Translations under genes and position numbers: made by a program | Notes under the pieces: model-generated | The model's database searches: none | The model's input: the letters and a program-made list of their open reading frames with translations, nothing else | Told to the model about the DNA's origin: nothing | Assembly (NCBI RefSeq): GCF_025602895.1 | Contig: NW_026516341.1 | Span: forward strand, 42,446 to 106,445 | Source of the DNA: Polychytrium aggregatum | Lineage: Eukaryota > Chytridiomycota > Chytridiomycetes > Polychytriales | DNA: 64,000 bases | Reading direction: 5' to 3' | Shown here: positions 4,682-50,736 of the stretch, piece after piece | Layout of the letters: every line of letters starts with the position of its first letter | Numbering within the stretch: the stretch's first letter is position 1

Positions 4682-7600
4682 ATGACATCAAAGAAGCGGA
4701 AGCGACTGGAGAAATACATTGTAAGATTCAGCGTCTCTTGCACACAGCTGCGGCTGTCGTTTGTCCGTGGCCCGGTATCTGCCATGCGATATTCAGCTTC
4801 GTCTGCGACAGACGAAAGGGCGCCAATACACACAGGCATTAACAAGACTGGCCTGTCCGTGCGTTGGTCGTTCCCTACTGCTTTCGGTGGATGCGGATGC
4901 TGACTTGCTCTGCCCCACTCGCCGACTTGAATCCCGCAGGAGAAGCATCTCAAGAAAGAAGAGCGAGCCAAGCTTTTGGAGAAGCTCCGCAATCAAACCT
5001 TCAGCTCCAGCTTGCTCAAGTCGAGTGCCAACATTGGAAACATGGTGCGTCTTTGAGGCGGTGTTGATCTTGCTGACCACCGTGGCGACCACAGCGCCCC
5101 AGGCCGAAAGCGCAGAGGCGGCAAAGCGGCCTCCAGACTAGCCCGCCCAAAGCTGATGTATGCTCATCCCCATCGTCTGCTCTAGAAACTCACCGCACGC
5201 CAACAGTTGCGGATGGCCCTGGACGCGGAGCGAGCCGGAATAACGCTCGACCCAACAGAGTACGGCTCACGGCTCTATGTCGAGCACGAGATTGCCGAAT
5301 CGGACGAGCAGTCATCCAACATGACAACTGGACCAAAGCGAGCCAAAACAGATCAAACCACGGACTCAGAATCAGATGGCGATCAAGATTCGGATGCAGA
5401 AATGGCGCTGGATTTTACGCCTCGGCCAGACAACTCGGAGCGAGGCGTCCAGGTGGTCGAGGCACAAGGCTATGCCGGAAGCGCGCCGAAAGACTTGCTT
5501 GTCAAGACCGATGCGGCATTAAAGCCTGCATTTGGTGGCGCCTTGAAGCGACCCTTGGTCTTCAAGCCACTGCCGACGACACAGCGCTCGAAAGCTGTCT
5601 CGCAAAAGCCTGGGGTCAAACGCACGGCCCTGAACGGAGCCGACAGTGGCAGCGACAGCGACAGCGACGGTCATGTCGAGCCCAATTCCTCCACTGTGGA
5701 GAATGGGAACAAAACAGCAACGTCTCACAAAGGCCAAGGCGTCACTGCATCCAATCTATCATCTCTACCTGTCGTGCCTGAACAGGTCGCCAAAGCGATC
5801 CGTGCAGCATCGACTCTTGAAAAATCCTACCCGGCCCCCTCGAAATCTGTAAAATCCTCTCGGCCGAGCTTCTTTGTGTCCATCGATCGTCCCGAGGCTG
5901 TGCAGATTGCCCGTGTCAGTCTCCCGGTCGTCGGAGAAGAACAAGCTATCATGGAGTCCATCTACGAGAACGACGTAACTATCCTCTGCGGCGAGACAGG
6001 TTCAGGAAAAACAACACAAGTTCCACAGTTCCTATATGAGGCCGGCTTCGGAGATCCCAAGCATCCCAAGTTCAAGGGTATGATCGGCATAACCCAGCCG
6101 CGACGTGTTGCTGCCGTATCGATGGCCAGCCGTGTTGGCGAAGAAATGTCGCTCACCGGCGGCCAGGTTGCATATCAGATCCGTTACGACTCAACCACTG
6201 TCAAGCCTTCAACGAGAATCAAGTTCATGACGGACGGCGTTTTGCTGCGCGAGCTGAGCGGGGCCCTGGGCATCCACAGTGAAGGCTCAAGTGCCTCGGA
6301 GCGCGGACCCTCCGGTGACTTGCTGCTGAAGAAGTACTCATGCATCATTATCGACGAAGCTCACGAGCGAACCGTTGGAACAGACGTCTTGATTGGATGG
6401 CTTACCCGAATTGTGTCCATCCGGAATTCGGGCAAGATCAAGGGAGTGGACCCGCTCAAGCTCGTGATTATGAGTGCCACGCTGCGTGTCGAAGATTTTA
6501 CCGAAAATAAGGGTCTATTCCCTGGCCCTTCCAAACCCCCGGTCATCAAGGTCGACGGACGGCAGTACAAGGTAACTGTGCACTACAACAAGAAGACTCC
6601 AGAGCTGGACTATGTCAGCGAAGCGTACAAGAAGGTATGCAAGATCCACACGAAGCTCCCAAAGGGCGGTGTGCTCGTCTTTCTAACCGGCCAGCGAGAA
6701 GTCATGTCGCTGGTGACGAAATTGCGCGACCGCTTCCCTCAGAAAGATTTGCGGACGGACTCGGCCCTTGAAGGGACCAAGATGTCTGAAAAGGGGGAGG
6801 GCAGCGGAAACGGAATGATGGACGAAGTCGAGGAAGCCGATCTCGATGCAACCGATCTCGCCAACGATGACTTTGTCTACGACAGCGACGATGGAAGCGA
6901 CGATGAAGAAAGCGATGTCGAGGTTCTCCCCGGCGAAGACGGCGAAGACGACGCAGACGACGCAGCTAATGATGCTAGAGACGAAAAAGGTCTGTCTTAT
7001 GCAGACTTTGTCAGAAATACGCCGTACTAATGCACGAGCGAGCTCTGCAGTGGAGGAGCTTGATGATCCTATAGCCACGCTATATATCGGCTGCGACGTA
7101 TCGCGGGCCTGGAGAATCTGATCACTTCCCGCGCTCACATGTTGCTCTCCACGTCGCTGCAGTCGAGGCGCCCCTCCATGTGCTGCCGCTATATTCGCTG
7201 CTCTCCACCAAGGCACAGATGATGGTGTTTGAGCCGCCTCCAGAAGGTGCACGGCTGGTTGTGGTTGCCACAAACGTTGCGGAAACATCGCTTACTATTC
7301 CGAACATGCGATATGTCGTTGACTGCGGCAAGGTCAAAGAAGTAGGCGTCACTATCTCTCGCCTGTGATGATAGCGCTGGTGACCCAGCACCTTGTAGCG
7401 TTGCTCTGTTAGCGCCGCACACAGCCATGCAGCCATCGACTCTGACATTTCACTTGGTCATTCCTCATGATTTGCGATGCAGAGACGATACGATATACAT
7501 ACTGGTGTTCAAACGTTCCAGATTCACTGGACCTCACAGGCCTCGGCTGACCAGCGTGCTGGTCGTGCTGGCCGTGTAGGTCCTGGTCACTGCTACAGAC

Positions 7601-10002
7601 TCTTCAGCTCCGCCGTGTTTGCCAACTACTTTGAGAAGTTTACCAAGCCGGAAATCTTGAGGATACCAATTGAAGATGTGATCTTGCAGATGAAGGCCAT
7701 GGGCATCCAAAACGTCGTCAACTTTCCTTTCCCGACAATACCGTCGCGCGACCAGCTCAAACGCAGCGAAAATGTAGGGCAGCCGCATTCTGTTTTCCCA
7801 AACAAGCAAAGACTCTCGGGCATTGTCGTCGGTGTGATGACTCGACCCTGCCCCACTGTTGGACTGGAATTTGCAGTGCATTTGTCTCGCGTCTAGATAA
7901 GGAGAGCAAAGGGGGTGCCGCATATATGGCTCGCGCGCGATAAATAACTCCATCGTTACTCTGAAGCTTTTGACGCATCTGGGCATACTGGAAGTATCGG
8001 GGGCCGTCTCTAGGATCACCGAACTTGGTAAGGTCGCGTCTCGGTTCCCTGTTTCGCCAAGATATGCAAAAATGTAAGATGGCTCGCTGTGATGGCCTGC
8101 GACTGGTATACTCGTGCGACAAGCGCGAGCGCCGATCGAGTTGCTGTTGATATTGCATACGAATGCCAATCTCCGCCTCAAGACGGCGTTTTCTCACCAT
8201 GCTATTTTCGGGAACTTGCAGGATTGTTGTGGCTGCACAACAGAAAGACCCGGCGATTCTTGGATTTGTTATCGCTATCGTGTCGGGCCTTTCTGTTGGC
8301 GATCCATTCGTAATGGATGACGAGATCCTGAAAGAAATCGAAGACGCCGCCGATACCGACGAAGGAGACGAAAAGTCGCGCAAGTCATCAAAGCGAGCCG
8401 AGTGGTTCCGGGCCAGACACATGTTTGAGGGGGCCGCTCCGACGTCAGATATACTTCGACTCCTCGCCGCCTTTGGCGCGTACTCGTGTGAGGCACGCAA
8501 GTCCCAGCATGCAGCGCACCAGTTTTGTCAAGACTACTTCCTTCGCCCCAAAGCCATGGAGGAAATGCTGAAACTGCAGTCGCAGCTCCGCAACATTGTC
8601 AAGGACACGCTTACGGAAGCCGAACTCTATCCTGCAGCCATAGCCATGGAGCGCCTTGGCAAATTGACGCCACCGACTGCAAAACAAGGAGTGCTTGTCC
8701 GACAAATCCTGTTGGTGGCATTCCCAGACCATGTTGCGCGCCTAGACGAGAGCTACCGCGGCCCCAAAGATGCCTCTCCTGTTTACCAGACAATGTGGGC
8801 GGAAAAGGATGAAATTTTTGTCATCCATCCAAGCAGCTGCCTGCACAACGAACGGCCTGCTCCAAAGTGGATCGTCTACGGCGAGATCGTCGGCAAAGAA
8901 GAGCGAGTCAGCGCCGATACCAGTGGCTTGGTTGGCGTACGAGGCGCGCTCAGCATGGATGGAACCAAGGTCGGAAACGACGGCAGTCTCGTCGCGCAGT
9001 TTGGAGCGGTGCCTTCTGGCTCGCGGAAGAAAATCTGGATCAAATCCGTCACGTCGGTTGCAGAGAACTGGATTGCAGGGATGATGCCCGCGTCGTTGTG
9101 CAGCACAGGGCGAATCCTTGATGATCCAGAGCCTAGATACAACCCCAAGAAGGATAGCATTGCCGGATTCGCCATTCCTACGCTTGGCCCGAAACTGTGG
9201 ATGCTGCCGACCCGGGAGATCGATTTGCCGGAAGGGATGCTGAAATATGCCTATTTTGCCAAAGCTTTACTCGAAGGGGTCCTTGACTTTGAGCGCAACT
9301 CCAGAGATTGCTTCAAAATTCTGGAGGTATGAATCGCGCACGGGGTTGCATCCTGCCACACTGGCCGCGACGCTCGTTCGCGCTTTCCAGAGACTTGGGT
9401 ATATGCGGCGGAGAGCAGACGGCAAAATGGGATCCCGGACGAATACACGCCCGAGGAACGCCATCAAGTCGGTATGGCAACTCTCGATAGCTGCAACATA
9501 AGCTGACTCGCGCCCACTATCTTAGCCGTTCCTGACGTCAAGGCCAGCAACGATCACCAAGTCATGGTCCAAATCGAGTGGCAAGGTTCGACAGCTCCTT
9601 GAGACGCTCGCAGGCTCCAAGGTTGTATCCAAAGCGACTTTGATTAGGAAATGGTAGGTTTGCGGACCGTCGCTGTGACGATCACTGCAATCCCGGCATG
9701 GCTCTCAAAGGGCGCAGTCAAAGCAGAGCAGCGGAGGAGTTCTCGATGCTGACGGCGTTGTTGCTTTTAGGAAAACCACCCCAAAGTTCATGCTCGATTC
9801 ATTCCTGTTGTGGACGCCAGCGGATGCCCACAACCTGCTCAGATCCGAGTGGCCACCTGTTAGGTTTGTGGGCGACACTTGCAAGGTCAACCAAGTGCTT
9901 GGAACCAAACTCGGCTCGCTCCTGGCCGGAGGGCTGTCCAGAGCCGGCGGCACCACTACTGCCACCACCAACCCAGGCAGCGACTACGACAGCGATTACT
10001 GA
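4682..10002 (+). CDS. ECM16: DEAH-box RNA helicase DHX37/Ecm16 (Dhr1)
   Basis: Nucleolar ATP-dependent helicase that, in yeast and animals, releases U3 snoRNA from pre-ribosomes during 18S rRNA maturation. The start is ATG at 4682. Exons 4682-4720, 4940-5044 and one from 5186 join in phase, giving a basic N-terminus ([13 protein letters not shown], then [15 protein letters not shown]). The large exon carries motif [15 protein letters not shown] (5990-6030), [14 protein letters not shown], motif II DEAH (6353-6364), SATLRVEDF (motif III) and LVFLTGQ. It ends in a long acidic insert (6800-6990). Later exons carry [55 protein letters not shown] (motif VI), then the helicase-associated region up to about 9260. 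The C-terminal helical domain continues at 9525-9653 (TITKSW, RQLLETL) and 9771-10002 ([11 protein letters not shown], ending SDYDSDY). The join between about 9265 and 9525 is unclear, because family-like residues appear in a shifted frame. Orthology is clear from insert position and C-terminus. Confidence 0.93.
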
Positions 10003-10317: not shown

Positions 10318-13300
10318 TTAGATGCGAGAGTACACGACCAAACCATAGCTCGGGAAAAGACCGCTCATCCTTGTCACAAACGCCGAAAGGGTGCCCAGGC
10401 GATTTTGCGGATCCAGCAGGAAATCGGTCGTGGGCTTGATCCATCCATGCACACGCTCGTATTCTCGGTTCTTGGAGAGCGCATCGAACGTCTCGATCAT
10501 CCGAAGTTGCGGTTCACTAAAGGTCTCTACAGAGTCGCCGTCATCGTGGCGGAAGAGTCGCGTGGCAATGAATGTGGAGAGAGCCTTTGAGAAGAAACGG
10601 AACTCGATCGACAATCTGGATTTGGGACCGAAGCCGAGCGTTGCCCACAAGCCTTGGCTGGCGCGATCTTCACTCCAGCCAAGCATCACATCGGCAACAC
10701 TGACGAGCTGCGACCGCAGCCGGGAGTGGTTCTCCGGTACAGTCATGGACGAAAGCTCCAGCGTCAGGATGTCGACAAATAGCTGAACGACAAGCAGCAT
10801 CTTTCCGTCAGCTGCCGGATCGTCGACCGCCTCCATTTTGATCGCCGCAATCCAGTTGCCGATTTGCTCGCCAATGATGATCTTGAGGTCGATGTTGTCA
10901 CCACACTGCTTGAGCTTCTGAAGGGCGTATGCATAGAGCGTGAGCACAAGCGCATGGCTCAGGCAGTACCGCACAAACAGATCCTCGTCAATCTCTGGGA
11001 CGACCAGTGCGGCCATAATTGTGTCCCACTCGTGGGAGCTACCGTAGAGCGATAAGTGGCGTTCGATACTTGATTCCACGAAGAGCGACAGGTGCTCGGC
11101 CGAGGCAAGATGGTGGCATGAAACAGAAATCATGATGTTTGCATGGTAGGTTTGCTTGCCGGCCATGATAAATCCCTTCCAGACCTGCATGAACGCACTG
11201 CTGCCACGGTGGGTGTCGTTGAGCAAGCGACAAACCGCTGCCGTGAAGTGACTAACGGCAAAGCCTTGCGCTTCAGAGCCACAGAGAATGTGACCATCCT
11301 CGATGAGGACAGCGAGTTCCACAATGATCGCGGCGATTTGCGTGTCCGAAAAGTTTGCAATCCGGACTTCTTGCGCCTCACTCTGTATCTGCCGAGTCAG
11401 AAGCCCCATGACATATTCGACATAGAGGCAGAGTCGCTCGTGACTGTCGGTAAAAGTGTCGGTATCGTTCGTGCGAGCTCTCCATCCGGCCATGTATCGC
11501 AGCACCAAGAGGGTCATCGACAGCGCGGAAGCAGTCGTGGAGGTGGAGCTTTCGAGGGCACAGCCCCAGCTTGGTGACAGCAGCGCGATGACTTGGCCCA
11601 TTTTGAGGGCGTCGAAGCCGGTCCGCCAGTCGAAATCTTCGAGGAATCGTGCTTTCATGGTGCTGTAAAACTGCTCGCGGTCGCTGGTGCAGACATAGAC
11701 ATCCTCGCTATCCTTGATTAGACTGAGAGCAAGCGGGACGAAGTGCGGCAGATGGTTTGGTTCGGGTCCAACTTGGCTCATTTGCTCGCCCATGATCCAG
11801 ATGCTTTCCTGCATCATCTTCGAGACTAGACGCTGGATTTCAACGGTGAGCTTGCCAGAGGCGCTCCAGCGGCTGGCTTGCATCACGACACTATCGTCGA
11901 AGTGGAATCGCGTCCAAGCTCGCCGCAATAGTTGTTCAACAAACTCGTGTGTGAGAATCGCGGGCACACTGGACTCGATCAGGGCCCCGAAAAATCTCCA
12001 CAAATAGACGTCAGCCGGAAAATGGAGCTTCCCCCGGCGACAAATGCTCTCTGTCGTCGCGATCCAGAAGGAAATGACCCTCTGGACAACCGCAGCTTCT
12101 TGGTGTGGCGGCGGCTCTGGTTGATAGATAAGCCCCTTCTCCCGGGTCGAGCACAAGCCTATCCACGGAAGGAGCATTGCCTCAACGGCATCCAGGAGCT
12201 GTTCAAGGTCGGTATTGGAAGCCTGAGCAAACAATAGATCCGACGACAGCAGGGCGCCGATAAACTCCAATATCGGCTCGACCGTGTCCAGGGTGAGATT
12301 TGCGAGGCATTCTCGTTGGCTCACAAACTCTTCCTCGAGACATCTGAGGAAGTTGAGGAGCCAAGCACCGGAGAGCTGCACTCGCATGCCCGGAGGTGTT
12401 TTCGGTGCAGATTTTTTTTGACCTTTGGCCTCTTGTACAATGTCCTTGAGAACATCGAGGACCTCGGTGCTCAAGTTGGATTTGATAATGTGGTGGAGGG
12501 CCAGGACGATTGCGTCGCTTGCACTGACGTCGAATTCGCTGACCAGCAGATCTTTGAGCAGCTGCGTGTGTTGTCGATGCAGCTCCGAGTTTTTGATGTG
12601 TCCGGCAGTACTGATTTGATTCGGCGGTATCTGGACAGATGGATGTGTGAGTCCAGGAGCGGTTGACATAGAGCCGATGTATCGTTGGAGAAGGTTGACA
12701 GCAAAAGTTGGCACGATTTGAGCAGGCATGGCAGACTCGGCTGGCGGGGGGACCTGATGCGTCGCTGTCCCTTGAATCGTTGTTCGCTGAGGAGGATTTG
12801 CGGGATACTCCAGCCGGAGTGACTCAACCAGCGACTGAAGGAAGCGCCCGATATCCTCGGCGGACGGTGGAGGCTCAAGCGCCAGCCAGTCCTTGATCAC
12901 AAAGCGAGCGAGTACTGCGCGGTTTGGAGAACTTTGGCCTGGGGCTTCCTCGTGTGCCATCAAAGCGGCATACATTTCGACAAACTTGGCAGCCGAAATG
13001 GCTGGGTTAAAGATCGAGGCAAGCAACTCGACGTTTGTTCCTCCGAGAATGATGGCAAATAGATGTTCGGTCTCCTCGGCGGAGTTCCTGATGTACCTCT
13101 GGCCGAGCGACGCAACAGCTATTTCAAGAATGCGACGAGCCGGAGGATAGATCTGTGCCATCTCTTGATCCAAGAGCTCCAGGACCGCGTAGAAGATCGC
13201 AATCGCAGCAGAATGGACTCGTGTTTCTGCTGACTTGTCACCGGCACGATTGAGCCAATCGACTGCGCGGAGGACTTTGAGACACATGACACAAAGCGCT

Positions 13301-16300
13301 GGGTCGATGAACGGTTCGACATTGACGAAGCTTTCCGAGTGTGCTCGGTTTTCTTTGAGGAAACGGCGTACGTCGGCGATCAAACGGACTTCTTGGTACC
13401 TGTACTCGAATGTAATCGCGCGGCTGCACTTGGGACTGCACTTCTTCTCGACGCGGCCGGATTTTGTTTCGTTGATGTACAGCCTGGGAAGCTGCGACAT
13501 ATAATCCCTATGGAAATGAACCACGACACAAATCAGTACTGTTGATTGCCCCAGGCCCAGCGATAAGATTCTTTGAAATGGTGCAACAACGTGGAGGCTC
13601 GCGAATATTGCAGTGTTTGCCAGCCATTCGAGACCGGGGCCGTACGTGTCGTAGACAACGCACGACCGCACCAGTATCGATTTGCTCAACCTCGAGCATC
13701 CACGGACCTGTCAACCTGGGCATGGCTTTCGACGAACACGTGGAAGGCCCTTGCCTTGGCAGTCAGGGTCTTGGTGTCGACCCGGAAGATCGTCTCGATA
13801 GCTGGAATGTCGAGCTTGCTGAGGGTGGGGACGAGCGGGGGTCGTGAGACATATACTGGCGACGGCTGGGGCTGGCTCTGAACAGCCCGGGCCTCGTCGT
13901 CCGGCGCAGATTGGGACCGCTCCCTGATGGATTCGAATGAGGTGACACGGTGGGTGACCCTGGGAGAGAAGAGTCTGGACTGAACCAAGGCCTTGAGGTG
14001 GGATTGCAAGTGCCCTGTGGGAACCAAGTCGGACCATAGATATTGGTCGGACTGCAAGGCGTTGCCTTCCAGAACGTCGTTGAGTCTTTCGGGAAAGTAC
14101 CGATCAGAGAGATGCTCCAGCGCAATGCTAACAGTCACCAGCCGACTGTCGCGTATCCACAGACACATGGCGTTGTAGAGCTTCGATAATAGCGTTGAGT
14201 AGTAGTCCAGACCGTCTCGGTCGTCAAGGGCTCCGGCGGGCTCACGCTTGATGATCTTGTCGGAGTGATACTGGGAGCACCTTGCCAGCCTCGTCTCCGC
14301 TCGATCGAGCAGATCTTTGCGGTCAACAAGAAACCTAAATCCGAATCTTGTGCCATAAACCAGAGCATCGACAATCAAGACCAGGTCCCACATCTGTCCA
14401 AGCTGACTCAAGCGACCCGAACAAAGGGCGGGCTTGGATCTGGACCGCAGCGCAGATATTCAACGGAGCCTATCTTACCGTGCATTCATCTGATTTGTGG
14501 GCGCCGTGCTCTTTTGGAAGTACAGTGAAAAGAAAACCTGGAAGAAAGTGCCATGTGAATCACTAATACGTCTGCTGCTGCGGCCAGCGACTCGGTATGC
14601 CGATAGCACACGCCACGCTGCATGGCATGCTTACCTGCCAATAGAGCGGAGTGAGCGGATGCTCCATAGGGGCCTCCAGGGCCGAATCGATCCACTTGAA
14701 GATCAAGAAGCCTGAGAGTGGCCTCTTGAGGGCAAGATTGCTGATGGCGCTCGAAATAGGGATCTGGATATCGCGGGACAAGAGTTGTCCAAGCTGCTCA
14801 CGCGCGGGAGCTTCATGCAGCGTTTCGACCATGAGAGCCTGGAAAGAGAGCCACATGCAGTCACGGTCGATACCGCTGGGGCTACCAGTCAAGCTCCATC
14901 CGCTCTTGTCAGAAAGCAAACTTGGATACGAAGCGTAGAGCGACTCGACTGCAGCCGAGGCAAAATTGTATGCCGACCCGACGGGATTGGCAAACGAGGC
15001 CGCCGTGCTGCTGCTTTTGAGCTGAAGATGTTGCTTGACCACCCGGCCGTACTCCTCAGCTAGCATAGGCCGTACAATGCTGTCGTACCGATATGCGAAG
15101 GCTACTTCGCAGATCATGTCCAGGAAGCGGCACGAGCTGCGACTGGTATACCACTCTTGATCAGCAAAGACCGCCATGACCCAGACGTAAACACATCGAA
15201 GAGTTGTTTCGGCATCTCCAAAAAAGCTATCGACCCCTGGAGGAATCAAGATCCCGAAATGTTGGGTAAGCAGCTTGTAGACGTCGGCATCAAAGTCGGT
15301 CAGTGCCTCAGCAGGTATCAGCGGATACCGCGTCGTTTCTCGTGGGGCTTTGAGTTCTAAGCGCTGACGGAAGAAGCCCTGGGTACGGCTGGTGCCACCA
15401 AAGAACCGAATAAAGGATTCGTCTGTCGTGATACTGGGCCCGTGGGTGGAATAAAACGTATCGAACAGACAATTCACCACATCAACAACAGCTTCGGGGC
15501 GGCCGTGTTCGACAACGAGGTCGAGTAAGGGCCATCCTTCTCGCCGAAACTCGTCGTAGTGATGCCCAAGCTCGGAGATCATGAGGACGATGTAAGCGGC
15601 AAGCGAGTTGGTTTTCATGGCGCCGCGAAGAGTTGCTAACGAGGGCGAGTTGAGAGGCTCAAATGGCCGCTCGCCTGGTGCCACAGACTCCAGAGCATAT
15701 GTGCTGTGCGATATGGGCTTCTGGTAGATCTTGAGCCTTTGAATCGTTTCCCTGCATCCAGGCGGAAATCACAGGAAATGGAAACGTGAGTTACGAACAG
15801 TGGTATCAAAAGCAGCTTGGTAAATGAAAATAGGAATGGTATGGATGGAGCTGCGAGTGGGCTTGCGTTTTCGTGCCACAATTCTGCTCGTAATGGACCG
15901 TATGGTTCATAAAATAGGGGCTACGATGCGGTATCACCGAGGACAACGTCCAAAGGAACGAGCAATGCAGCTTCCATGGGCTTGAATACCAAGGGATTGC
16001 GTTTGATAAGCTGTGGCCCGAAGCTCCTCACAACCCTAACGACTCACCAGCACCATGCCACAAAGTCGATCGCACGTCCAGGAATCAGTTGTGCCAGTGC
16101 GGACGGAATAGGCGCAAAGGTGCTGACGGTGGATGCGACCGTTGTCGCCACCACAGTCGTGGCCGAAATCAGCCCACTCTTCGAAGCTTTCATACTCTCA
16201 TGGTCGAGGCATAGGTTTCCTATCGCCAAAGCAACATGCCGGTGGCAGGATCGAGGGATAGCAAGCTGCACATCGGCAGGGGATCCTCGAGACTCTTCCC

Positions 16301-19284
16301 AGTCTAGGTGGTCGAGGCAGTGCCGAGCTATATCGAACTTGATACCTCCGACTGGGTCCTTGAGCATCTCGCAGAGAATTTCGACTTCAAGGAGTGAGGG
16401 CTTCCAGAGATGCACTGGTAGCCGCCGGAATAGAACCAAACTGTCGCAGCCGAGTTCCATGGGATCGCTCCGAGTCCACTGCAGGATGGCGGATATATGG
16501 ACCGGGAATACAGTGCATATTCGTGCCAATAAATCCAGCGAATATTCCACTAGGTCATCAGGAAAGTGACTCTGGCAGAGCAGGCGATATATCAAAAAGA
16601 CGGCAACGCTGGACAGCTCTCGGAAGGACACCTCGAGTCCAGGCACAGCTGCCAAGGACCGCTCCTCTGTCGAGCTCAAGGGTGTCAAGACAATGTTGGT
16701 TATGACAGCCAGGAGGGAGCAAGCTTCGTTGATGTTGTCGAGGATTTTGGAGCTGATGGCAAGGCTATCGATGTCGGTATCTCTAAGGATCGCGAAGAGA
16801 TCCTCTTTGGATTTGTGAGTGAGCTTGCCCCCCGAGAACAACGTCCCATCGACAATTCCAGAGATCAGAACCCACTTGGCTTGAGCAGAAACGTAGTCAA
16901 ATGACAGGCTCGACAAATTTTGCCAGACTCCTGTTCCGGCAGCGCTGAGCAAATGGCAAGCAGCGCGGGAAAAGAACCCATCGACTTCCGACTGGACGCT
17001 GGACACATATTCGGGGCCGACCAGGCTGAGCGTGTGAAGGAATGGGGCCGCGTTGAGGGCTTTCTCCGAGGAACAAAATGTGTCGGAAATGGCCTTGCCG
17101 AGAATGTGGGTTGACTGTGCGATGATTTGACCGAGCGTCTGGACCATCTTCGGAAACCGCCGGTATGGAAAGATCTGAAACCCGCGGGTGAGGATGATCA
17201 TGTAGCGATTCGAGACAGCAAAGAGACGCATCAGGTGAGAGCTCGCCGAGGGCAAGTTCGCATCGACATCGGAGAGATAGCGGCCGAGACAGGTCTGCAC
17301 AAAAACCGAATAGAACTCGCAAATCTTGAACTGATGGAGGAGCGAGAGATAGTCGTCTTCGGAGAGATTGGTGACAAGAAACCGCGGAGCATCCGGGTCG
17401 TATTCACTCTGGATGACTACTACCCAGTCGGATTCTTCGAGTTTCTTGAGTTTCTGGATAAACTGGAACTCCTCCAATTCGTGTGTCTGCCGCTGCTCCT
17501 CGAGCTCCTCCACGGGGCCCAGGAACCCATAGAGCGTTGCAAGGTAGTTATCCCAATAATCGTCGATCCAGGGGGTGGGAATGTGCCATTGGATGAAGCC
17601 GGCGCCCCACTGCCCAACGCCCTTGCAGCGGAGGGCGTGAAGCAGCAGGAATCGGTGATCGATCGGGCGGGCGACCCGTAGCAACGCACCGACAATGTGG
17701 GTGATCCATCCGCGCACGTCTTTCAGAAACGTGGAGTAATTGGCACGAGATTCGTCGTCGGGCTGTGGACTGGCGAGGGCAGTGGGGACATGCTTGTTGG
17801 CAGCATGACTGCCAAGATGCGCAGCGTGCATTCGCACTTCAAAATCAAAGAGGACGTCGAGGTAGTGCTTCAAAGTGCCTACTTGCTCGTCGAATGCTTC
17901 TGTTGACACGTCACCCAGACCTCCTCGAGATCCCTTGTCCAGATTCGAGTCCATCGACGCTGTCGCTGACGAGCCATCGCCAACAAGCGAAAACAGCGGG
18001 CTTTCGGTCAGAAATTCGTCAATGAAATTCTGGATCCAGAGGCGAGACAATTTGGCATCAAAGCACACGCGTATACAGTTGCTGTGGATTTCCTGCCGGA
18101 GGCTGTCAAGTGTGTCCTGGAGCTGGGTGGCGGCAGTGTCGCTGAAGATAGCAACCTCGGAGGTGAAGTTGTGCATGAGCTTGACGCCGTCGACGCAAAC
18201 TCGCTCGATGCCCTCCGAATGCTTCTTGAGGCTCCAGATGCGTGAGCTAGTGCTGTTTGCTGTGTCATTCAGTGCCTTGATCTGGATCATGCTCTTCTGT
18301 GACTCTACAGAAGCTCGCTCGTACTGACACAAATGTTCGTAAAACTCATCCGCGGGGAGGTTTGCCCGTTGAGCGCGGAAGTGGTCCACCAGCGCTTGGT
18401 GCTGTCGGAGTGGCTCGTTAATATAGAGTTTGTTGAGTACATCTTCAGCAACAGGCTCGAGGTAGTCTTTGAAGATATCTGCATTTTCGAGGCTGACTCG
18501 CTCGCGATGCGTCTGGCTGTACTGTGCAAAGTCGACCTCATAGTCGTCTTCAAAGAGCTGCGGGGCCGAAGGATACTGATGGGCCGAGACAAAGACATTG
18601 TCGTGTGCAAAGGGAGCGTCATCCACGATGGCCCAGGCGGAGTGGTCGTTCTCGGTATCTCCGTCACAGACTATGAAATCAAGCGGGATAGACGATGGCA
18701 CACGGCTCGTGGTGATGAGCAACATCAAATTTTGTCTTGCACAGCAAGGAGGCCACCTATCGCTCTACATTCTCATTCAAATAGAGCGTCATTGGGGGGG
18801 GGTTGAGAGATGGGCAAGGATTGATCTTACCGGCACGCAGGTTCAGTTGCTCGATTTCGGGCAAAGTCGAAAGGGGGTAGCTTTGAAGAACATACGGACT
18901 GGACTCCAGTTGCGGGGCTGACGGTGCGGATGGAGCTGTGGACTCATGGAACTGTTCGGGAAGCCCGCCGGCCACTGCTTCACCGAGAGCAGGATACAGC
19001 TGTGGCTCGGGACGGCCGGGCTCCATGCGGGGGATATGAGAGGGCCCAGCCAGCTCACGCAGCGACGAAAAGTCGACATGCATCTCGGGAGACTGCAAAA
19101 GAATGCTCTGGGTGGTTGTCTGGGGGTGCTGCTTGCCATCCGAGGACGAGGCAAAGTCATCGAGCGTTGGACTGGGCAGAACTTGGATGGGGCTGGAGGT
19201 CGACGCATCGTCGGGTCGAGAATGGCGAGGCAGAGGTCGTGATTTTTTCTTGGGCTTCTTGTGGCGAACCAGCTGCTCTTCCAT
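10318..19284 (-). CDS. EPG5: EPG5 homologue (autophagosome-lysosome tethering factor)
   Basis: EPG5 is a very large Rab7 effector that tethers autophagosomes to late endosomes/lysosomes and promotes SNARE-driven fusion in animals. Six exons (19284-18831, 18670-16048, 15751-14635, 14537-14479, 14439-13708, 13507-10318) have canonical GT...AG introns and phases that all fit, giving 2724 residues; human EPG5 has about 2580. Conserved blocks occur in order: SRIWSLKK...VCVDGVKLM, DHRFLLLHALRC, RRLPVHLWKPS, GLISATT, WETIQRLKIY, HPLTPLYWQ, a KKCSPKC segment matching the animal GKKCQG region, and WATLGFGPKSRLSIEFRFF near the C-terminus. The N-terminus (about 150 residues) is basic then disordered with a YPAL motif, as in animals. 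The rest is predicted all-helical. Start ATG at 19284 gives MEEQLVRHKKPKKK; an upstream in-frame CLLCLLCL run is encoded by a 9-bp repeat and is not taken as coding. The assignment rests on remembered human sequence and length. Confidence 0.9.
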
Positions 19285-19776
19285 GATGGACAAACAATAG
19301 AGGACGCAGCGAACTTGATGGACGGGCGAGCGGAGGCAGAGGAGGCAGAGGAGGCAGAGGAGGCAGAGGCACAAGGGCCTCGGCCAATGGCAGGCATGCC
19401 GTGGCGGGGTTCGGACATCCCGTCATGTGAGAGCGAGCGACCCTGCGCCACAGGCGTCCAGCCTCCTGGGCAGTGCGACAGTGCGACGGTGTAAAAATGT
19501 GGCCTGACGCCCCAAGCCCGCTGTCGCTTGGACCGATCAATACATGCGCCGGCCGGCCGGCACAAAACTCGTCGCAAACATAGGTGGACCCGTTTAGTTT
19601 GGATGAGTTTGTATTTGCACACAGGGAGTCGGGGGCAAGTCACAATGCAATACAAGCCACAATGCAGTGCGAGCCGCGGTAGCCGAGCAGGGGAATTCTG
19701 AGCAGCCGCGAGGGGCCGGAAAAAATTGATAGTGATATCCAGCGAGTCCCCACGAATCAGCGCTGTGCTTTCTCGC
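19285..19776. other. Upstream region of EPG5-like gene with 9-bp repeat
   Basis: About 490 bases lie between the EPG5-like start codon and the CPA2 stop codon; both genes are on the minus strand. It should contain the CPA2 3' UTR and the EPG5 promoter. A GAGGCAGAG tandem repeat lies at 19332-19370. No convincing gene was seen. Confidence 0.5.
19332..19370. repeat. 9-bp tandem repeat (GAGGCAGAG)
   Basis: About four copies of GGAGGCAGA in a row, immediately upstream of the EPG5-like start codon. On the minus strand it reads as Leu/Cys codons in frame with that gene, which could mislead an automatic start prediction. Confidence 0.85.
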
Positions 19777-22700
19777 TCAAGCAGACATCCATTCGTCCCA
19801 GCTCTTAACGCCTTGGGGCTTGGTCTTGGTGCCGCTCTTGACATAATCATCCAGAGCCTGTACCAAGACGACAGCGCCCTTGGTTTCGTTGACGAGGGCG
19901 ACGCCAAAGTCAACAGCGCTCCGGCGTACCAGGTAATCAATGTCATCGACGTGCTCGGGTCGCTTGGCGGCCAGCGAGATCACCAACTGAATGTCGCGCT
20001 CCACAAACAGGGCCTTTGACGCTCGTCGGTCGCCAAAGACCTTGACCAAGGCGCTCTCAGGGCCGGCCACAAACGGCTCGCTAGCAATGTCCTGGGTCTT
20101 GAGCAGATCCGTGGTGGATTCTTTGTCGGTGTAGATCCGGTAGCCCATTCCAGAGAGCTTTTGGGCGACATAGTACAGCTCAGTGAGGTTGGTCAGCGCA
20201 TCGATTCCAATGAGCACGCCGCTCTCGGCCTTCATCGGCAGGAGCTTGAAGTTGTTATGGTTGCTGAAGAGGCCGGTGAAGAGCGCCTCCTTGACGTCGC
20301 GGCCAAAGCAAGCCACCTCGCCGGTAGAAGCCATTTCGACACCAAGCATGGGGTCGGCTCCCGCCAACCGGGTCCATGAAAACACAGGGACCTTGACGGC
20401 CTTGTAGTTGCGCTCGACCGTCATCAGATCTTGTTTAGGGACGACACTCGAGAGCGAGGCGTCGTTGACGATGGCGCGGGTGGCAATGTCGATAAAGTTG
20501 GTGTCAAAGACCTTGGAGACGAACGGGAACGAGCGAGAGGCGCGCAGGTTGCACTCAATGACCTTGAGGGCGTGCTTGCCTGTGGCGTCGTCGCGTTGGA
20601 GAATAATTTGCATGTTGAACGGGCCTGAGATCTTGAAGGCCGCGGCGACCTTCTCGGTAATGGCCTTGCAGTCCGCCACGATCTCAGGGGTGATTCCTCG
20701 GAGGCCGATGCCGTTGTAGTCCTTGTTTTCGTGCTCGTACGTAGGAGGAAGCACCAGGGTGGCATCGCCAGAGTGCACACCGGCGTTCTCGATATGCTGC
20801 GAGACGGCGTAGACTTGCAGACTGCCACCATGGGCCACGGCATCGACGTCGAGCTCCTGGGCGCCTTGGATGAACTTTGTAATCACAACAGGATGCTCTG
20901 GGCTCACGTCCGAGGCCAGCGAAAGGTAGTGCAGCAGGGCTTGGCGGTCGTGAGCCACATTCATGGCGGCACCCGAGAGGACGTACGACGGCCGGATGAG
21001 CACCGGGAATCCAACCTTATCGGCAAAGCCGACGGCATCGTCGAGCGAGGAGAGCTCCTTCCATTCGGGCTGGTCAACACCAATGGCGTCGAGCATCTGC
21101 GAAAACTTTTGGCGATCCTCTGCTCGGTCAACGTTGACGGGAGAGGTGCCGAGGACCTTGACGCCGTTATTCCAGAGCTTGAGGGCAATGTTTTGCGGAA
21201 GCTGACCGCCGACACTCACAACCACACCGGAGGAGTGCTCGCGCTCATAGATATCCATGACGCGCTCGAAACTAAGCTCCTCAAAGTAGAGGCGGTCGCA
21301 CTCATCAAAGTCGGTCGAGACCGTCTCGGGATTGTAGTTGACCATGACGGTGCGATGGCCAAGCTGGCGCAGGGAGCGGATGCAGCTGACGCCACACCAA
21401 TCAAATTCAACTGACGAGCCGATGCGATAGACGCCCGAACCCAGGACCATGATACCCTTGTCATTGAACTCGACATCATCCGAGGTGGCGTTGTAGGTCG
21501 TGTAAAGGTAGTTGGTGGAAGCCGGGAACTCAGCAGCAAGCGTGTCAATGCGCTTGACGTACGGGATGATGCCGTGCGACTTGCGGAGGGAGCGCACGGC
21601 CAACTCGGTCGAGCCTGTGTACTTGGCGATTTGCTTATCCGAGAAGCCACTCTTCTTGGCGAGCTCGAGCAGAGGCACTGGGACGGTGGAGGTGTGATGC
21701 TTGTAGTCTGTGGTAGGGACAGGCGCGGTAATCTCGGGGCCCTCGGCGCCGACAGCAAAGGTCTCGGGACCAGGGACGGGGCCTTGGTATTTGCCGAGCT
21801 CGTTGCGGATATTGACCAGGTTCTCGAGCTTGTACAAGAACCACTTATCGACCTTGGTTAGCTCATGCACCTGGTCGACGGTGTAGCCGCAGTTGATCAT
21901 GGCGTGTCCAATGGCAAAGAGACGCCGGTCCGTGGGGTTGCGCAGCATCTCGTCCAAGTTCTCAAAGGGCAGGCCCTGGAAGCCTTCGAAAGAGGGATCC
22001 ACCTGGCGGATCGCTTTCTGCAGACTCTCCTCAAAGGTGCGGCCAATGGCCATGACCTCGCCGACCGACTTCATCGACGAGCCAATGTCGCGAGCCACGT
22101 GCTGGAACTTGCTGAGATCCCAGCGCGGAATCTTGGTGACAATGTAGTCGAGGGACGGCTCAAAGTTGGCGGTGGTGGTGCGCGTGACGCTGTTGCGCAA
22201 ATCAGGGAGCGAGGCACCAAGTGCGATCTTTGCCGCAACAAAGGCCAGCGGATAGCCGGTGGCCTTGGAAGCCAGGGCACTGCTGCGAGACAAACGGGCG
22301 TTCACCTCGATGACGGCATACTCGAGGCTGTTGGGGTTCAGGGCATACTGAACATTGCACTCGCCCACCACGCCGAGGTGGCGGATGATCTTGATGGCGG
22401 CTGTGCGGAGCATGTGGTACTCCTCATCGGTGAGCGTCTGACTGGGGGCGACGACGATGGAATCGCCCGTGTGGATGCCGAGGGGGTCAAAGTTCTCCAT
22501 GTTGCAGACCGTGATGCAGTTGTTTTCGGCATCGCGCACAACCTCGTACTCGACCTCCTTCCAGCCCTTCATCGATCGCTCGACGAGGATCTGGGGTGCC
22601 AGCGACAGAGACTTGGTCGCCAGCTGGCGCAGCTCGTGCTCGTCGTTGGCAAAGCCAGAGCCGAGACCACCGAGAGAGAAGGCCGAGCGGACAATCACAG

Positions 22701-23592
22701 GATACCCAATCTCCTGGGCAGCATCCAGGGCAGCATCGACGGTCTCGACTGCGGTTGAGCGCGCCACCGGGATGCCGATTTCTGGGCGGGGTGTCGAAAG
22801 AGAACCGAGAGATAAACAGCATCAGCGCGGTGTGCAACTCCGACGATACAGAAGGGCTACTGCGGTCAAGAAGCGATATGAGACCCGCGACACGGACATA
22901 CCCATCAAGGCTTTCGCAAACAGATCGCGATCCTCGCTGAGCTCAAGGGTGCGGATGGGGGTGCCGAGAACCTTGACGTTATGTCGCTTGAGGGCGCCGT
23001 TGTGCTCCAGAGCAACACCGCAGTTGAGGGCCGTTTGACCGCCAAAGGTGAGGAGGATGCCGTCTGGCTTCTCCTTCTCCAAGACGTACTCAATGTACTC
23101 GGGGTTGACGGGAAGGAAGTAGACGGTATCGGCCAAGTCCTTGCCGGTCTGGACCGTGGCAATGTTGGGATTGATGAGGATGGTTTGGACACCCTCCTCC
23201 TTCAGAGCCTTGATCGCTTGGGATCCAGAGTAATCAAACTCTCCGGCTTGGCCAATCGACAGGCCGCCGGAACCGACAATCAAGACTCGCTTGGCAGCCG
23301 GCTCGGACTTGAGAGACGAGTGCATGAGCACAGTGTCTGCAGCCGCATGGTTGCGACGGAAAGGCTGCGCCTGGGCGTTTATGGAGCCGGTAAAGATTCC
23401 GAGGACATACTTGCGGAAGGCTTCGGGGCCCTCAAAGTGGCTGGCAGGGAGGATCTGCGAGCCAGCAGCGGCTGCAGGGAAGGCAGCCGTGGCAGTTTGG
23501 GAGGCGTGATAGCCGCGAGAAAGAACCAGAGTTCGAGGAGCAGGGCGGAAAAGGGAGCCGATGCTCTTGAGAGCCGAGGCGCGGTAAAGCAT
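19777..23592 (-). CDS. CPA2: Carbamoyl-phosphate synthase large chain, arginine-specific, mitochondrial
   Basis: Makes carbamoyl phosphate from bicarbonate, ammonia (from the small-chain glutaminase) and two ATP for arginine biosynthesis. Two exons, 23592-22902 and 22781-19777, split by a 120-nt GT...AG intron, encode 1231 residues. The N-terminus ([20 protein letters not shown]...) is rich in Arg, Ala and Ser with no acidic residues, a typical mitochondrial presequence. Both ATP-grasp halves are present: [31 protein letters not shown] and [12 protein letters not shown] in the first, [33 protein letters not shown] and [13 protein letters not shown] in the second. The C-terminus has the MGS-like domain. 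There is no glutaminase and no aspartate transcarbamylase domain, which excludes the CAD-type pyrimidine enzyme. Together with the presequence, this supports the arginine-specific form. Confidence 0.96.
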
Positions 23593-24882
23593 TGGGGGAG
23601 CAGGAGGATCAAAGGGGTTGGAGAGGAAGAAGTCTGGGAGAAGGCCGCGGAATTACGGGATACAGGAACAAGGGGGGGGGCTGATGGGAATGTCGATGTT
23701 ATAGGCGATTCGCAGAGAGAGTGACTTAGGCAGAAAGGCTCTTGTAGACCTGGTCGGAAATGTAATCGTTGGAAACCTGGGAGAGCGGGAAAGCGCAGGC
23801 CGAATGAGCACCAGGTCAGAGAAAGACGCAGGGTATCGACAAAGCAATCGATCGACAGCAGATGGCAAGGATACATGAGGCAGACGGGAGGATCCAAGGC
23901 GTGCGCAGAGGGCGGTGCCCCGAGGGGAAGTGGCCAGGAGGACGGCAAGGGCAGATCCGGCCAGAAGCCCGACCAACCCGAAAGCGCGGCATGGACAGCG
24001 GGTTCTGGGAGCGAGCCCGGCGGGGCGATCGGTGCGTACCTTTTCGCTGATGTGATGGTACATGTAAAGTGCGCAATCGACAGGTTCCAGAGGCACTTGT
24101 CGACGAAGCAGCAGGAGGGAGTCGTGGAGAGAGAGCGAGAGCAGTTGCGCCGGCAGCAGAGGGGAGCAGAGCAGATCGGGACGGGGAGCAGGGCGGCGGG
24201 CTGGCGATCGGCAGCCGGATTTATGGGGCCGAAAAGCGAAAACGCGACCGCTATCAGCTAAGCCACACGCAGCAACGCCACAGCATCGGGCGAGTCATCG
24301 GGCGCCCGCCAATGGGGTGATGCCGCCCGTGAGGTGATCCCACATGACGGGAGGGCGAGTCGTGGCAGGCGATCGAGCGACACGGCGATGCCCAGGGATG
24401 TGCCAGGCACGCGAACAGCAGGTCGATGCCCTGGGAGCGATGCCCTGGGAGCGATGCCCTGGGAGCAATGCCCTGAACAATGCTCGCAGGCGACCGGGCG
24501 CAGCACTTCCTGATCACAGCACAACCGCGAACTCTGTCCCTCTGAGCCGTAGATTTCGCGGGCTCGGCGTCGCGGATTCATACACTCTGTTCAGTGGGAA
24601 ATGGGACACCTGCCCACAACCCATTTATCAGCGTGGTATGCGATGGCATGCGTCTAACTATGCCATAAGAAATAGAACAGATCACTTTGGCAGCCTCCGA
24701 GTGAAGACCACCGGTCGCAGTGCAGCGATGCGGAAATCGAGGGTGCTGTGCTTGGCCATGATTGCAATGAGCGGGTGGGTGTATTCAGGTTCCAGAAAAA
24801 AACCACTGCCATGGCTCAAAACGGGGTGTCCCATTTCATTTTGGAACGCTGTATTCAAGCACGCTCGTATCGGAGCGCTTGC
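23593..24882. other. Intergenic region upstream of CPA2
   Basis: About 1.3 kb lies between the CPA2 start and the 3' end of the proteasome beta-6 gene. Small frames occur on both strands, but their translations are Arg/Ser/Pro-rich and unlike any family. The stretch holds the CPA2 promoter/5' UTR and a short 14-bp tandem repeat at 24425-24476. Confidence 0.5.
24425..24476. repeat. 14-bp tandem repeat
   Basis: Three exact copies of GATGCCCTGGGAGC followed by a degenerate fourth, in the CPA2-PRE7 intergenic region. It lies outside any called gene. Confidence 0.85.
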
Positions 24883-45516: not shown

Positions 45517-46435
45517 GGCAGGAGCAGGAAGCGAAGAACCGAGGGCGAGGGAGGACTTGGCTGCGTTGGCTGTGTGAGATGATCGGCCGGCCGAGGGCTG
45601 AGAGAGCCGGGAGATGAGACAATGCCGCAGAGTCAGCGCGAAGACGCCGTCCAGAAGCAGAGAGCAGGGCCAAAGCCGACGGGCGTGTGCTGGAGATGGC
45701 GATGGAGACGAACGTGGCCAGAGCCGACGCAGGTGGAGCACAGCGCCCGTGTGCGACCCGGTGCAACGGGCGCACAAGGAAAGTACTTTTGCCCTGGATC
45801 CACTCGCCGGATCCATCCACCGGATCGAGCCGGCTGGCCACACACACACACACTCGCTTGTCCCTTCGCCGTCTTTGGCCGTCGCCGCATCGGCCTGCCG
45901 CCATCGGTTTGCCATCATCGGTCCCCCTCCAGGCATCCGTCCAGGCGCCGTCCATCTTGCTTGTCGCCACCCATCGCCGGCGACACCCTGAGAATTCCAC
46001 AAGCAGTCTATCTCTTCCGCTCCTCCGCACGAACCCAGGTCGGTGGCTCTCCAAACGACGTCTTTCCGTCCAGGCGTCTCGATGCACCACCCCCTGCATC
46101 GTCCACGTCACCAACCCCGCGGTGCCTTCCTGCCGTCGTGGTCGTGGTCAATCGGCTCGATCGGAGCCAGACATGTCCCCATCTGCTGTCACTTTAGTCC
46201 AGTCGAGTTGGGCTTGCTCATTTCCTGCCGCCCCGATGTTGGTCGCCACTGGTTTTGGCTCCCCTCCCTAGCGCATCAGCAGCAGGAGTTGGTGTCATTG
46301 CAAGGCAGCGCCATCCAACACCCCAGCCAACCAGCCGCCCGTCCGATCCGCTGCCACTGACTACCTCTACTACTTCCCTTGGTTCATCTGCCATAGTCTC
46401 GTCGCACCTTGACTTGAAGCTGCTCTCCGGCTGCA
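45517..46435. other. Divergent promoter region (DUF155 gene / MATH-domain gene)
   Basis: About 920 GC-rich bases lie between two divergent start codons. Several long open frames on both strands cross it (up to 279 codons). They are Arg/Pro/Ser/His-rich mirror frames of one another, which is expected from composition, and none resembles a protein. A short (CA)n run lies near 45841-45851. Confidence 0.5.
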
Positions 46436-49400
46436 ATGTCCTCGCCATTCCAGCCCTCGCCGCTCCCCTATCGTGCTCCGCCTCCTGGAGCGGCCCTGTC
46501 GGGTCTGCCTCGGCCACAGCCCCATCAGGACCGCAAGCCGTACCCTCCCGGCTCCATCTCCACCCAAAATCCAACCGGCTATTCGCCCACCGTCTCCTTC
46601 TATGATGGCTCGCCGCAGCCGGAGGCCAACACCCTTCCGGCCCTCATCACCGCCACAGTCACCTCCGTCAATGGCTTCAGCCCCTTTCAGAGCTCCAACT
46701 TCCCCAGCGCCCTTGGCCAGCTCTACACCACCCCGGTGACCACCAAGCTCATCGCATCATTCAACTGGGCCATCGTCGACTTTGACCCTTCTATGGAGAA
46801 GATCGTCTCTCCTCCCTTTGGCCCAGTCGATTGGCGGTGGCAAATCGTGATCTATCCAAACGGCGTCGCCGCTGGTCACGGAAGCTTTGTCAGTGCCTTC
46901 ATTCGGCCGCTGCCCAACGACCAGGAGCTGGCCGATGCCGAGAACTGGAGCCGCCCTGTCAAGTACTTTACCATCCGCGTCCGCTCCGCCTCATCCGACG
47001 CCCCGGGCATCTGGGACGACTTTGTCGTCTCGAGCACCTCTCTCGAGAGCTTTACCGGCTTCAATGCCTCTGTCCCCGGATGGGGGTTCCCGAGCCTCCT
47101 TGAGATCCCCCGTCTCTCGGAAGCCATCAACCTCGAGGGCACCATCAACATCGAAGCCGAGGTCACGGGCGAGGTTGTCGTTCCTTGGTCGAGCTTTGCA
47201 TACACCTGGACGATCGACGGCTATGACGATCAGGCCGATGCCGAGCTCGAGTCTGCTCCGTTTGGCACGGACGAGTGTCTGTGGAAGATCCACTGGTTCA
47301 AGTTTGGCGAGCCCGGCTCGGCCGGCACCCACATCGCCGCGTACATCGCCCCGGTGCTCTCCCAGCGCGAGCAGTCCCTGGGCGATGGGTGGTGCAGACC
47401 CATCAGCTCCTTTACTCTCAAGGTTCTGCGCGGACAAGGCGGCGCCCTGCTCTGCACAAAGACCTTTACCGGCGGCTATATCTTCAATGCCAAGAAGCTC
47501 AGAAAGGGCTGGCCCGACCTGCTGAGCCTGAGCTTGATCCCCGAAGCTGTGGATTGGTCTGGCAAGGTGGTCGTCGAGGCCGAGATTACCTGGGATCCCA
47601 AGTTTGGCCTGCCCGAGACACCGCTCGGCCAACTGCAGATGTCCCTTGCTGAGCGCACGCTCCAGCTTGCCGAGGCTCAGGCGGCTCCGGCCCTCAGCGA
47701 CGATGCTGTCGCCGAGCACGAAGACATGCAGCAGCGCCTCGCTTTGGCAGAAGCGCGCGCCAGCCAAGCTGATATAGACCTGTCGCACCTCTATCAAGAA
47801 GTCGAGCAGCTCAAGGGCGAACGCGCTGCGCTGGCAACTGAACTTGAGACCGTTCGCGAAGACTGCCAAGCCGATCAGCGAGTGATTGCCAATCTGCGAC
47901 ATGACCTAGACATCGCCAAGCAGGTCGCCGAGGAGCAGGAAGTGCTCAAGGAGCGCATCAACGAACTCAAATCCGAGCTCCGAGACTCGCGCTCGGCCTC
48001 CAGCGACTATGCCGTCGTCAGGAGTCGCCTCTCCCAATGCAAGTCCAGTCTAACGGATCTCTATGCCCGCATGGACGAGCCTGACTACGCCGTCCCTACT
48101 ACCAGGACCGAGCGCATCTCCAAGCGACGATTGGTCCGTCGCACCATCGTTTCCACGGATGGCGCAGCTCTGCCTGCCACCTCTGAGGCTGCTTCGCCGG
48201 AACAAGAAGAAGAAAATGGCTGGATTGTTGACAAGGAACTCGAGGGCCTCCTGAACGAGGCTGAACCCGCAACGGAGGTTCAGGTCATCGAGGACTGGGA
48301 AGAGAAAATCGAAGTCACCAAGGAAACCCAGCTCGGACCGTTGACCAAACTCGACCTCGACGAACTCGTGCGGCTCAGGAGCGAAAATGCCCGCCTCAAG
48401 GCTGATGTTGCCGCCGCGCGCGCCTCTGTCGTTGAGTCGCAGTCCCAGCTTCAGCTGAAGCTCAACCAGGCCGCTGAGCTTCGCGACAGCAGCGAACAGC
48501 TCGGGGTCGAGATCCAGGATTTGCCGACCGCAGTTCAGTCCCTTCAGGAGGAGATTTCTGTTGCCGAGATCGCCCTCGCCGATGCACAGAAGACACCGAT
48601 TCCTATCCTCCCAGAGACGGAAGCGGAACGCATTGCTCGCAGCGCCGAGTTGGCCATGATCCAGGCTGAGCTTGAGGTCGGCAGGGCCGCCGTCCTTGAT
48701 GCTACCCAGCGCACGCCTGAGGAGCAGCTGAGTGCGGAGGATGGTCCTGGCGCATACCTGCCGAGCATCCAAGCGCACGTCGCCAACCTGCAGTATCAGC
48801 TCACTGTTGTGCGCGCCGGCCTTGATCCTCAACTAAGCAGCTACATCTATACGGCACCGGCCGCATATTACCCTCCGAATGATGGCGCCTATGCCCAAGA
48901 CGGCGCCTATGCCCAAGATGGCACCTATGCTCAGGATGGCACCTATGCTCAAGATGGCACCTATGCTCAAGATCCAGCCTATCTCCAAGACGATGTTTAT
49001 GTCCAAGATGAGGGGTACGCTGGAGCAGCCATTCCTCCGCCAGAGCTGCAAGTCTCTGCTGCCGAGGCCACCAATCTTGGTGATTCATTTGAGATCCTCA
49101 ACGATATCCCCGTTGCTACCAAAGAAGCCACGAGTGCATCTGCTCTTCCTCCTCCTCCGATTGCCGTACCGCAGCGCGTCGAGGAGCCCACCTCCCAGTC
49201 GTCTCTGGCGAATAACGAGCTGGTCGAGGAGCTTGAGCGTGTTCGTGCTGAGCTGGCCTGTCTTAAGGCTGGCCCTCTTGTTTCCCATGGCGATAATGAC
49301 CTATTCAATCCCGAGCCCTGGACTCCTGCCGAGCCAGCGCTGAGCTCTCTGGAATCCGCATCTACTAAGGGCGGTCTGAGCCAAGCTGATACGGAGGTAA

Positions 49401-50688
49401 GCCATCTGTGCGAGCGAAAACGCCTGTGGCATCCGTGCGCACGAATGCTGCATCTAGCCGTCCAGATCACGACGCTTTCTGTAACCAATTTATCTTTGTC
49501 GGGCATTGCTCGCGGCAATCCTCAGCGTCTCAAGAGCAAGCTCGCCAAGGAAGCGAAGCGACAGGGGTCGTTCTTTACCACTCTGCTTGTCCTGGGGCTC
49601 TCCGGTGCCCTCGCCTACACGACACTCTACGTCGCCTGCTCACCAGAGGTCCAGCAACAGCGCGCCCACCCCCAAATCAACGAGATCTGCAATCAGCAGA
49701 TCACGCCTGCCATGGACCTGGTTCGGAGCACTGCAAGCTCCCTCTCGCAATCGTTCACCGGTCAGGTTCTTCCCAGAGTTATTGAAGCGTACAGCCAATT
49801 CGAAAGCGCCCTCTTATCGATACAGATTGGCTCTGCCCACAGTAGTGCTGACGCCGATCGTGCTGAGTTTGAACGATTGATGAATGGCGATGAAGCTCTG
49901 TCCCCTACTGACTCTCGGGTCCCGGTCAGCCAGCCCTCGGAGCCGGTCCACAGCTCCGCCCAGCAGACCCAACAAGACCAGCCCGCGTCTGATCGTATTG
50001 AATCTGCCACCGAGTCCATCATCAAATACGAGGAGCCCTCCCCTGTCGTCGTAGCCATTCCAACCAGTGCTCCAGAGCCCCAGCCACCAAGCGAGCCGGC
50101 TTTCACAAATGAAGAACTCGCGGTCGAGGATATCTATGCAAACATAGTCATTGGTGAGCTGCACGCCGCGGTTGCCAACAACACCCTCGTGCAGCCTTCG
50201 GATGACACTGAAGGCTCTGTGGCGACATTGGTCGATCCAACCAAAGTCTCTCAGCCCACCGAGTCTGTTGAAGCCATTTACTCTGTCGAAACTATCGCGA
50301 CTGCTCCAGAAGCCAGCTCTCATCCACCGCCCGAGTTTGTTGCCTATGCGCCCATTCCGACGCACGCCGCCGAGACAGCAGCGTCGGCCACCTCAGCGGA
50401 CCCGGAAGCACCTGTTGCGTCTCGACAAGCCGATCTCACCGCTCCGACTTCAGCCGAGCTTGAATCGGAGGTTACCGCAGCGCCTGAGCCTGTGTCGATC
50501 ACAAACCAGGCACCAGCTCCAACAACCACACAAAACGAAGCTCCGGTCGCAACCTCAGAAGCCACCACGACCAAGATTGAATCCACTACTGTGGCTGTAC
50601 CTGAGCAGCCCATTGCTACTGAAGATGACGGATCGCTCCAACAGCAACAGCAGCAACAGCAGCAACAGCAGCAACAGCAGCAACAGCA

Positions 50689-50736
<48 letters not shown>

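Follow-up and report, generated by a model that had tools for sequence, protein, structure and literature searches.

EPG5 is introduced as a metazoan-specific protein in PMC7935953 and PMC5471274, and is reported in PMC12005284 to be absent from yeast. Its first-found member, EPG-5 of C. elegans, is described as a tether that binds LGG-1 (PMC7935953, PMC12005284, PMC7615515). A preliminary description of a 64,000-nucleotide stretch of DNA (hereafter the window; positions 42446-106445 of contig C45 in an assembly of 64.7 Mb and 418 contigs) had nevertheless placed a full-length EPG5 homologue at 10318..19284, in what was taken to be a flagellated fungus. This raises the question of whether the locus holds an intact gene of the EPG5 family, whether that gene belongs to the fungus and what its product would do there.

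Gene model of the locus

The gene occupies positions 19284..10318 on the minus strand, where six exons join into a single open reading frame of 2713 residues whose sole stop codon stands at its very end. From the start codon at 19284, exon 1 (18831..19284) is followed by intron 1 (18671..18830, 160 bases), exon 2 (16048..18670), intron 2 (15752..16047, 296 bases), exon 3 (14635..15751), intron 3 (14538..14634, 97 bases), a 59-base exon 4 (14479..14537), intron 4 (14407..14478, 72 bases), exon 5 (13708..14406), intron 5 (13508..13707, 200 bases) and exon 6 (10318..13507), which includes the stop codon. The five introns all begin with GT and end with AG, and retention of any of them brings in two in-frame stops. 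With every junction of the GT-AG type and the frame open up to one terminal stop, the six exons and five introns initially proposed are borne out.

An open frame is by itself insufficient to fix the junctions, since each intron has between 30 and 121 alternative splice choices that leave the reading frame uninterrupted. Introns 2, 3 and 5 lie in regions where the alignment with human EPG5 runs on without a break (WCW/ETIQRLK, YWQ/VFF and VDR/DYMSQLP, respectively, the stroke marking the junction), and the same alignment gives no homology support across the junctions of introns 1 and 4. The acceptor of intron 4 is uncertain, as is the 5' edge of exon 5: an acceptor at 14439 is one of the choices that also leave the frame open, and it yields 2724 residues. 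We prefer the 72-base intron because the acceptor at 14439 would leave an intron of only 39 bases. The open six-exon protein of the preliminary description thus stands, whereas its length of 2724 residues is replaced by 2713, the longer value fitting another intron-4 acceptor such as the one at 14439.

Other coding regions were also recognized in the window. The gene upstream of the locus (19780-23652, minus strand) encodes a carbamoyl-phosphate synthase large subunit according to Pfam, and in the PDB it matches mitochondrial CPS as well as large subunits that are separate proteins. Two open frames at 5186-9329 (plus strand) with DEAD/DEAH-box helicase, HA2 and OB domains are probably exons of one helicase gene, and a 1630-residue open frame at 46418-51307 (plus strand) contains two MATH-domain stretches (Pfam).

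Similarity of the encoded protein to EPG5

As a reference for human EPG5 we used a sequence of 2579 residues that is not a database record. This sequence agrees in identity and position with the published residues at 39 of the 39 positions checked (26/26 residues given in passages of PMC7935953 and PMC12577676, and 13/13 in passages of PMC5471274). The two LIR peptides presented in PMC7935953 comprise 23 residues, of which 22 agree with it, the mismatch being residue 549. Because of such accurate agreement with published residues, we considered it usable as a reference.

A tblastn search of the raw window with this sequence, which is independent of the gene model, returned four significant pieces that are colinear, all on the minus strand and all within the locus. 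One lies in exon 2 (human residues 289-901, E 3.5e-31), one in exon 3 (972-1313, E 3.3e-12) and two in exon 6 (1564-1792, E 5.1e-9; 2235-2570, E 2.5e-15). For the remaining eight of the 12 pieces listed, E is at best 1.9; the top one (14315-14028), the weak piece of exon 5, has this value and keeps to the colinear order within the locus. Exon 1 has no significant homology piece in this search, and the short exon 4 contributes VFFSLYFQK, aligned with human KFFLLYLHR. Compared with the spliced protein by blastp, human EPG5 gave 254 bits over 1703 columns (E 4.6e-71) and a second match of 76 bits (E 7e-17) at the C-terminus, whereas the best of 1000 shuffled versions of the protein reached 30.4 bits. 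Of the 2404 residues paired in a global alignment, 566 are identical; identity is 24% over the full length and is spread along the whole protein (16 to 32% per 200 human residues); 24 of the 42 tryptophans of human EPG5 are kept. The fungal protein shares the very large size of EPG5, with 2713 residues against the 2579 of the human reference, the human protein being given as ~292 kDa in PMC7935953. A six-frame search of the 64.7 Mb genome with human EPG5 listed 10 matches at E <= 1 (seven candidates scored), and all 10 fall either in this gene or in a second copy of it on contig C1. The colinear tblastn pieces, the margin of the blastp score over the shuffled controls and the genome search uphold the full-length EPG5 homologue first proposed, and at the level of sequence comparison we regard EPG5 homology in a flagellated fungus as well supported.

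Profile and structure searches were less informative. A Pfam scan of the spliced protein gave no family above the cut-off, a null result that says little because neither of the two EPG5 accessions looked for is in the Pfam copy used; DUF5601 (E 0.086), below the cut-off, was taken as chance. Searching the PDB with the spliced protein revealed no relative among solved structures, the only matches being PCNA chains (best E 0.026), likewise attributed to chance. A two-sequence EPG5 alignment used as query retrieved 130 pattern matches in IMG/VR and 39 in the GTDB genomes, with no relative among either set.

We then considered individual landmarks of the family. Near the C-terminus, GFGPKSRLSIEFR of the fungal protein matches human GFGRKSPLSNRFR at the same place in the alignment with human EPG5, forming the GFGxKSxLSxxFR block (residues 2609-2621; 10597..10635, minus strand). 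At the other end, a YPAL is present at residue 97 and is not aligned with human YPQL/YPEL, the human YPQL pairing instead with YPSA at residue 184. Among the landmarks said to follow one another in the animal order, the C-terminal block is therefore retained, and the N-terminal YPxL is weaker, being present but not aligned.

Human EPG5 is described as binding Atg8 proteins through W550-TLV553 (LIR1) and W567-ILL570 (LIR2), with LIR1 dominant in the full-length protein and LIR2 binding more tightly as a peptide (PMC7935953). In the fungal protein, W567-VVV570 (17415..17426, minus strand) is aligned with human LIR1 by both blastp and MAFFT, and is a candidate LIR as judged from its sequence. It is preceded by an acidic EESD, and 20 residues further on, the same spacing as for human LIR1, a conserved leucine begins an LxEDD block. 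The strict xLIR pattern fits this site and five other places in the fungal protein, a result that carries little weight because the pattern misses both proven human LIRs; the kept tryptophan is by itself unremarkable, given the proportion of human tryptophans kept overall. Conservation does not extend to human LIR2, whose tryptophan is aligned with fungal V584. Of the two human LIRs, one is thus retained at its position: the W-x-x-V of LIR1, which constitutes a putative Atg8-binding site. We treat LIR2 as a trait of the animal EPG5 proteins studied so far and not as a criterion of descent.

Among eight human missense sites that were checked, only V464 is identical in the fungal protein. At the sites of V1238A and T1994A, where the local alignment is not strong, the fungal residues (1331 and 2122) are those of the patients, showing how far the protein has diverged from human EPG5.

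Putative role and partner proteins

In animals, EPG5 is described as being recruited by Rab7, capturing Atg8 and helping the SNARE complex (PMC7935953, PMC12005284). By analogy, we consider it likely that the fungal orthologue acts as an autophagosome tether. It would be a long rod with the shepherd's-staff shape of animal EPG5, which a Rab7-type GTPase would recruit to the late endosome or the vacuole, and it would bind Atg8 on the autophagosome with a single LIR. By promoting SNARE assembly, it would then direct the fusion of autophagosomes to the vacuole instead of to other endosomes.

EPG5 stabilizes the STX17-SNAP29-VAMP8 complex, and the genome was searched for two partners of such a tether. 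ATG8 gave five matches at two loci. STX17 was not detected in the genome with one human query, a kind of query that may miss a short, intron-split gene. The only match to this query (E 0.02, two copies, one internal stop) appeared by eye to be a syntaxin whose single membrane anchor is of the ordinary kind, and was set aside. In a survey of fungal SNAREs, syntaxin 17 is counted among the duplicates of endosomal syntaxins that occur in animals (PMC2639358), which would be in keeping with another Qa-SNARE as the partner in fungi. Since no STX17 was detected, we infer that the partner of the fungal protein may be another endosomal Qa-SNARE.

The same observations could be read differently, the protein being an EPG5 orthologue by descent that serves another endosomal route rather than autophagosome tethering. 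The lack of a conserved LIR2 and the failure of the single human STX17 query to detect its target would agree with this, and a role in retrograde endocytic traffic has been reported for C. elegans EPG-5 (PMC12363523). However, LIR1 is kept at its 20-residue distance from the LxEDD block and the genome does contain ATG8 matches, and we regard such a role as unlikely. Tethering of autophagosomes remains the role that we propose for the fungal protein.

Host genome, origin and age of the gene

The right end of the window (62184-63782, plus strand) encodes part of an outer-arm axonemal dynein heavy chain (Pfam), whose best PDB matches are DNAH9 (417 bits) and DNAH17 (415 bits), followed by a flagellar outer-arm beta chain (222 bits). 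Elsewhere in the genome, the axonemal dynein light chain family has four matches and the radial spoke family eight. A tektin profile search of the whole genome returned no match, which speaks against a flagellum, yet this is outweighed by the dynein and radial-spoke matches. Zn_clus and Chitin_synth_1N are fungal families, and the genome contains at least 27 matches to the former and at least 13 to the latter; neither family has a match in the 14 control genomes of the profile search, one of which is known by name, a bacterium. One Chitin_synth_1N match is on contig C1 (1,620,700 bases), ~130 kb from the second EPG5 copy. The identification of the host as a flagellated fungus is thus supported. 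Codon usage was also tried as a sign of native origin and proved uninformative, an out-of-frame reading of this same gene correlating almost as strongly (r 0.83) as three other ORFs do (r 0.85-0.91).

The second copy on C1 corresponds to window positions 1-29807 and is colinear with them; the comparison covers 29.8 kb, at 99.82% identity. The coding sequences of the two EPG5 copies show 10 differences, eight synonymous and two non-synonymous, and no indel. As 7.3 of 10 changes would be expected to be non-synonymous for these base changes (P of two or fewer, 0.0005), the data support constraint on the protein between the two copies. A 9-base length difference between the copies is located at window positions 19332-19340, in a CTCTGCCTC-type repeat ~50 bases upstream of the start codon. 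Many matches of the Zn_clus and Chitin_synth_1N searches are also paired on different contigs, and for this reason the assembly probably holds both haplotypes. The EPG5 orthologue gene is single in the search made, its two near-identical copies probably being haplotypes.

A native gene could still have entered the lineage by horizontal transfer from an animal or another eukaryote into a fungal ancestor, in which case EPG5 would not be shown to predate animals. The comparison made here is with human EPG5 alone, and the absence from yeast reported in PMC12005284 is also what a patchy, transferred gene would produce. Against such a transfer stands the 24% full-length identity to human EPG5, a value so low that any passage from an animal to a fungus would have to be ancient, and also, as weak evidence, the presence of five introns; we consider it improbable. 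Contamination of the assembly by a host or companion organism is scarcely credible, for even though the fungal identity of the genome is read in this analysis from family content alone, the gene is present on two closely matching contigs, the 1.62 Mb C1 carries both the second EPG5 copy and a Chitin_synth_1N match, and Zn_clus matches are numerous in the assembly. We thus conclude that the locus is very probably an intact nuclear gene of a flagellated fungus, encoding a native EPG5 orthologue of about 2713 residues, and that an EPG5 family member is found in an unexpected lineage, a fungus.

In the open literature, no fungal EPG5 was found among the top-ranked titles and abstract beginnings, a weak negative as many of these were off-topic. 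Non-animal EPG5 homologues may already sit in automatic annotation, which limits the surprise. EPG5 is probably older than animals and, if descent was vertical, its origin moves back to at least the common ancestor of animals and fungi. A more detailed scenario, which we put forward only tentatively, is that EPG5 arose as an ancestral opisthokont (or older) tether with one LIR and a Qa-SNARE partner other than STX17, that animals added LIR2 and the partnership with STX17, and that yeasts lost EPG5. If this scenario were true, flagellated fungi would display the ancestral form of the pathway.

The fungal protein offers a distant sequence with which to locate the constrained parts of a human disease protein, and simple flagellated organisms are possible systems for testing the EPG5 tether. 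Compared with human EPG5, the Vici syndrome protein, it has no conserved LIR2, its N-terminal YPxL is not aligned, it exceeds the human reference by 134 residues and its host is a fungus. In contrast, the two proteins are alike in their colinear homology over the full length, in the W-x-x-V of LIR1, which is in place, and in the GFGxKSxLSxxFR block near the C-terminus.
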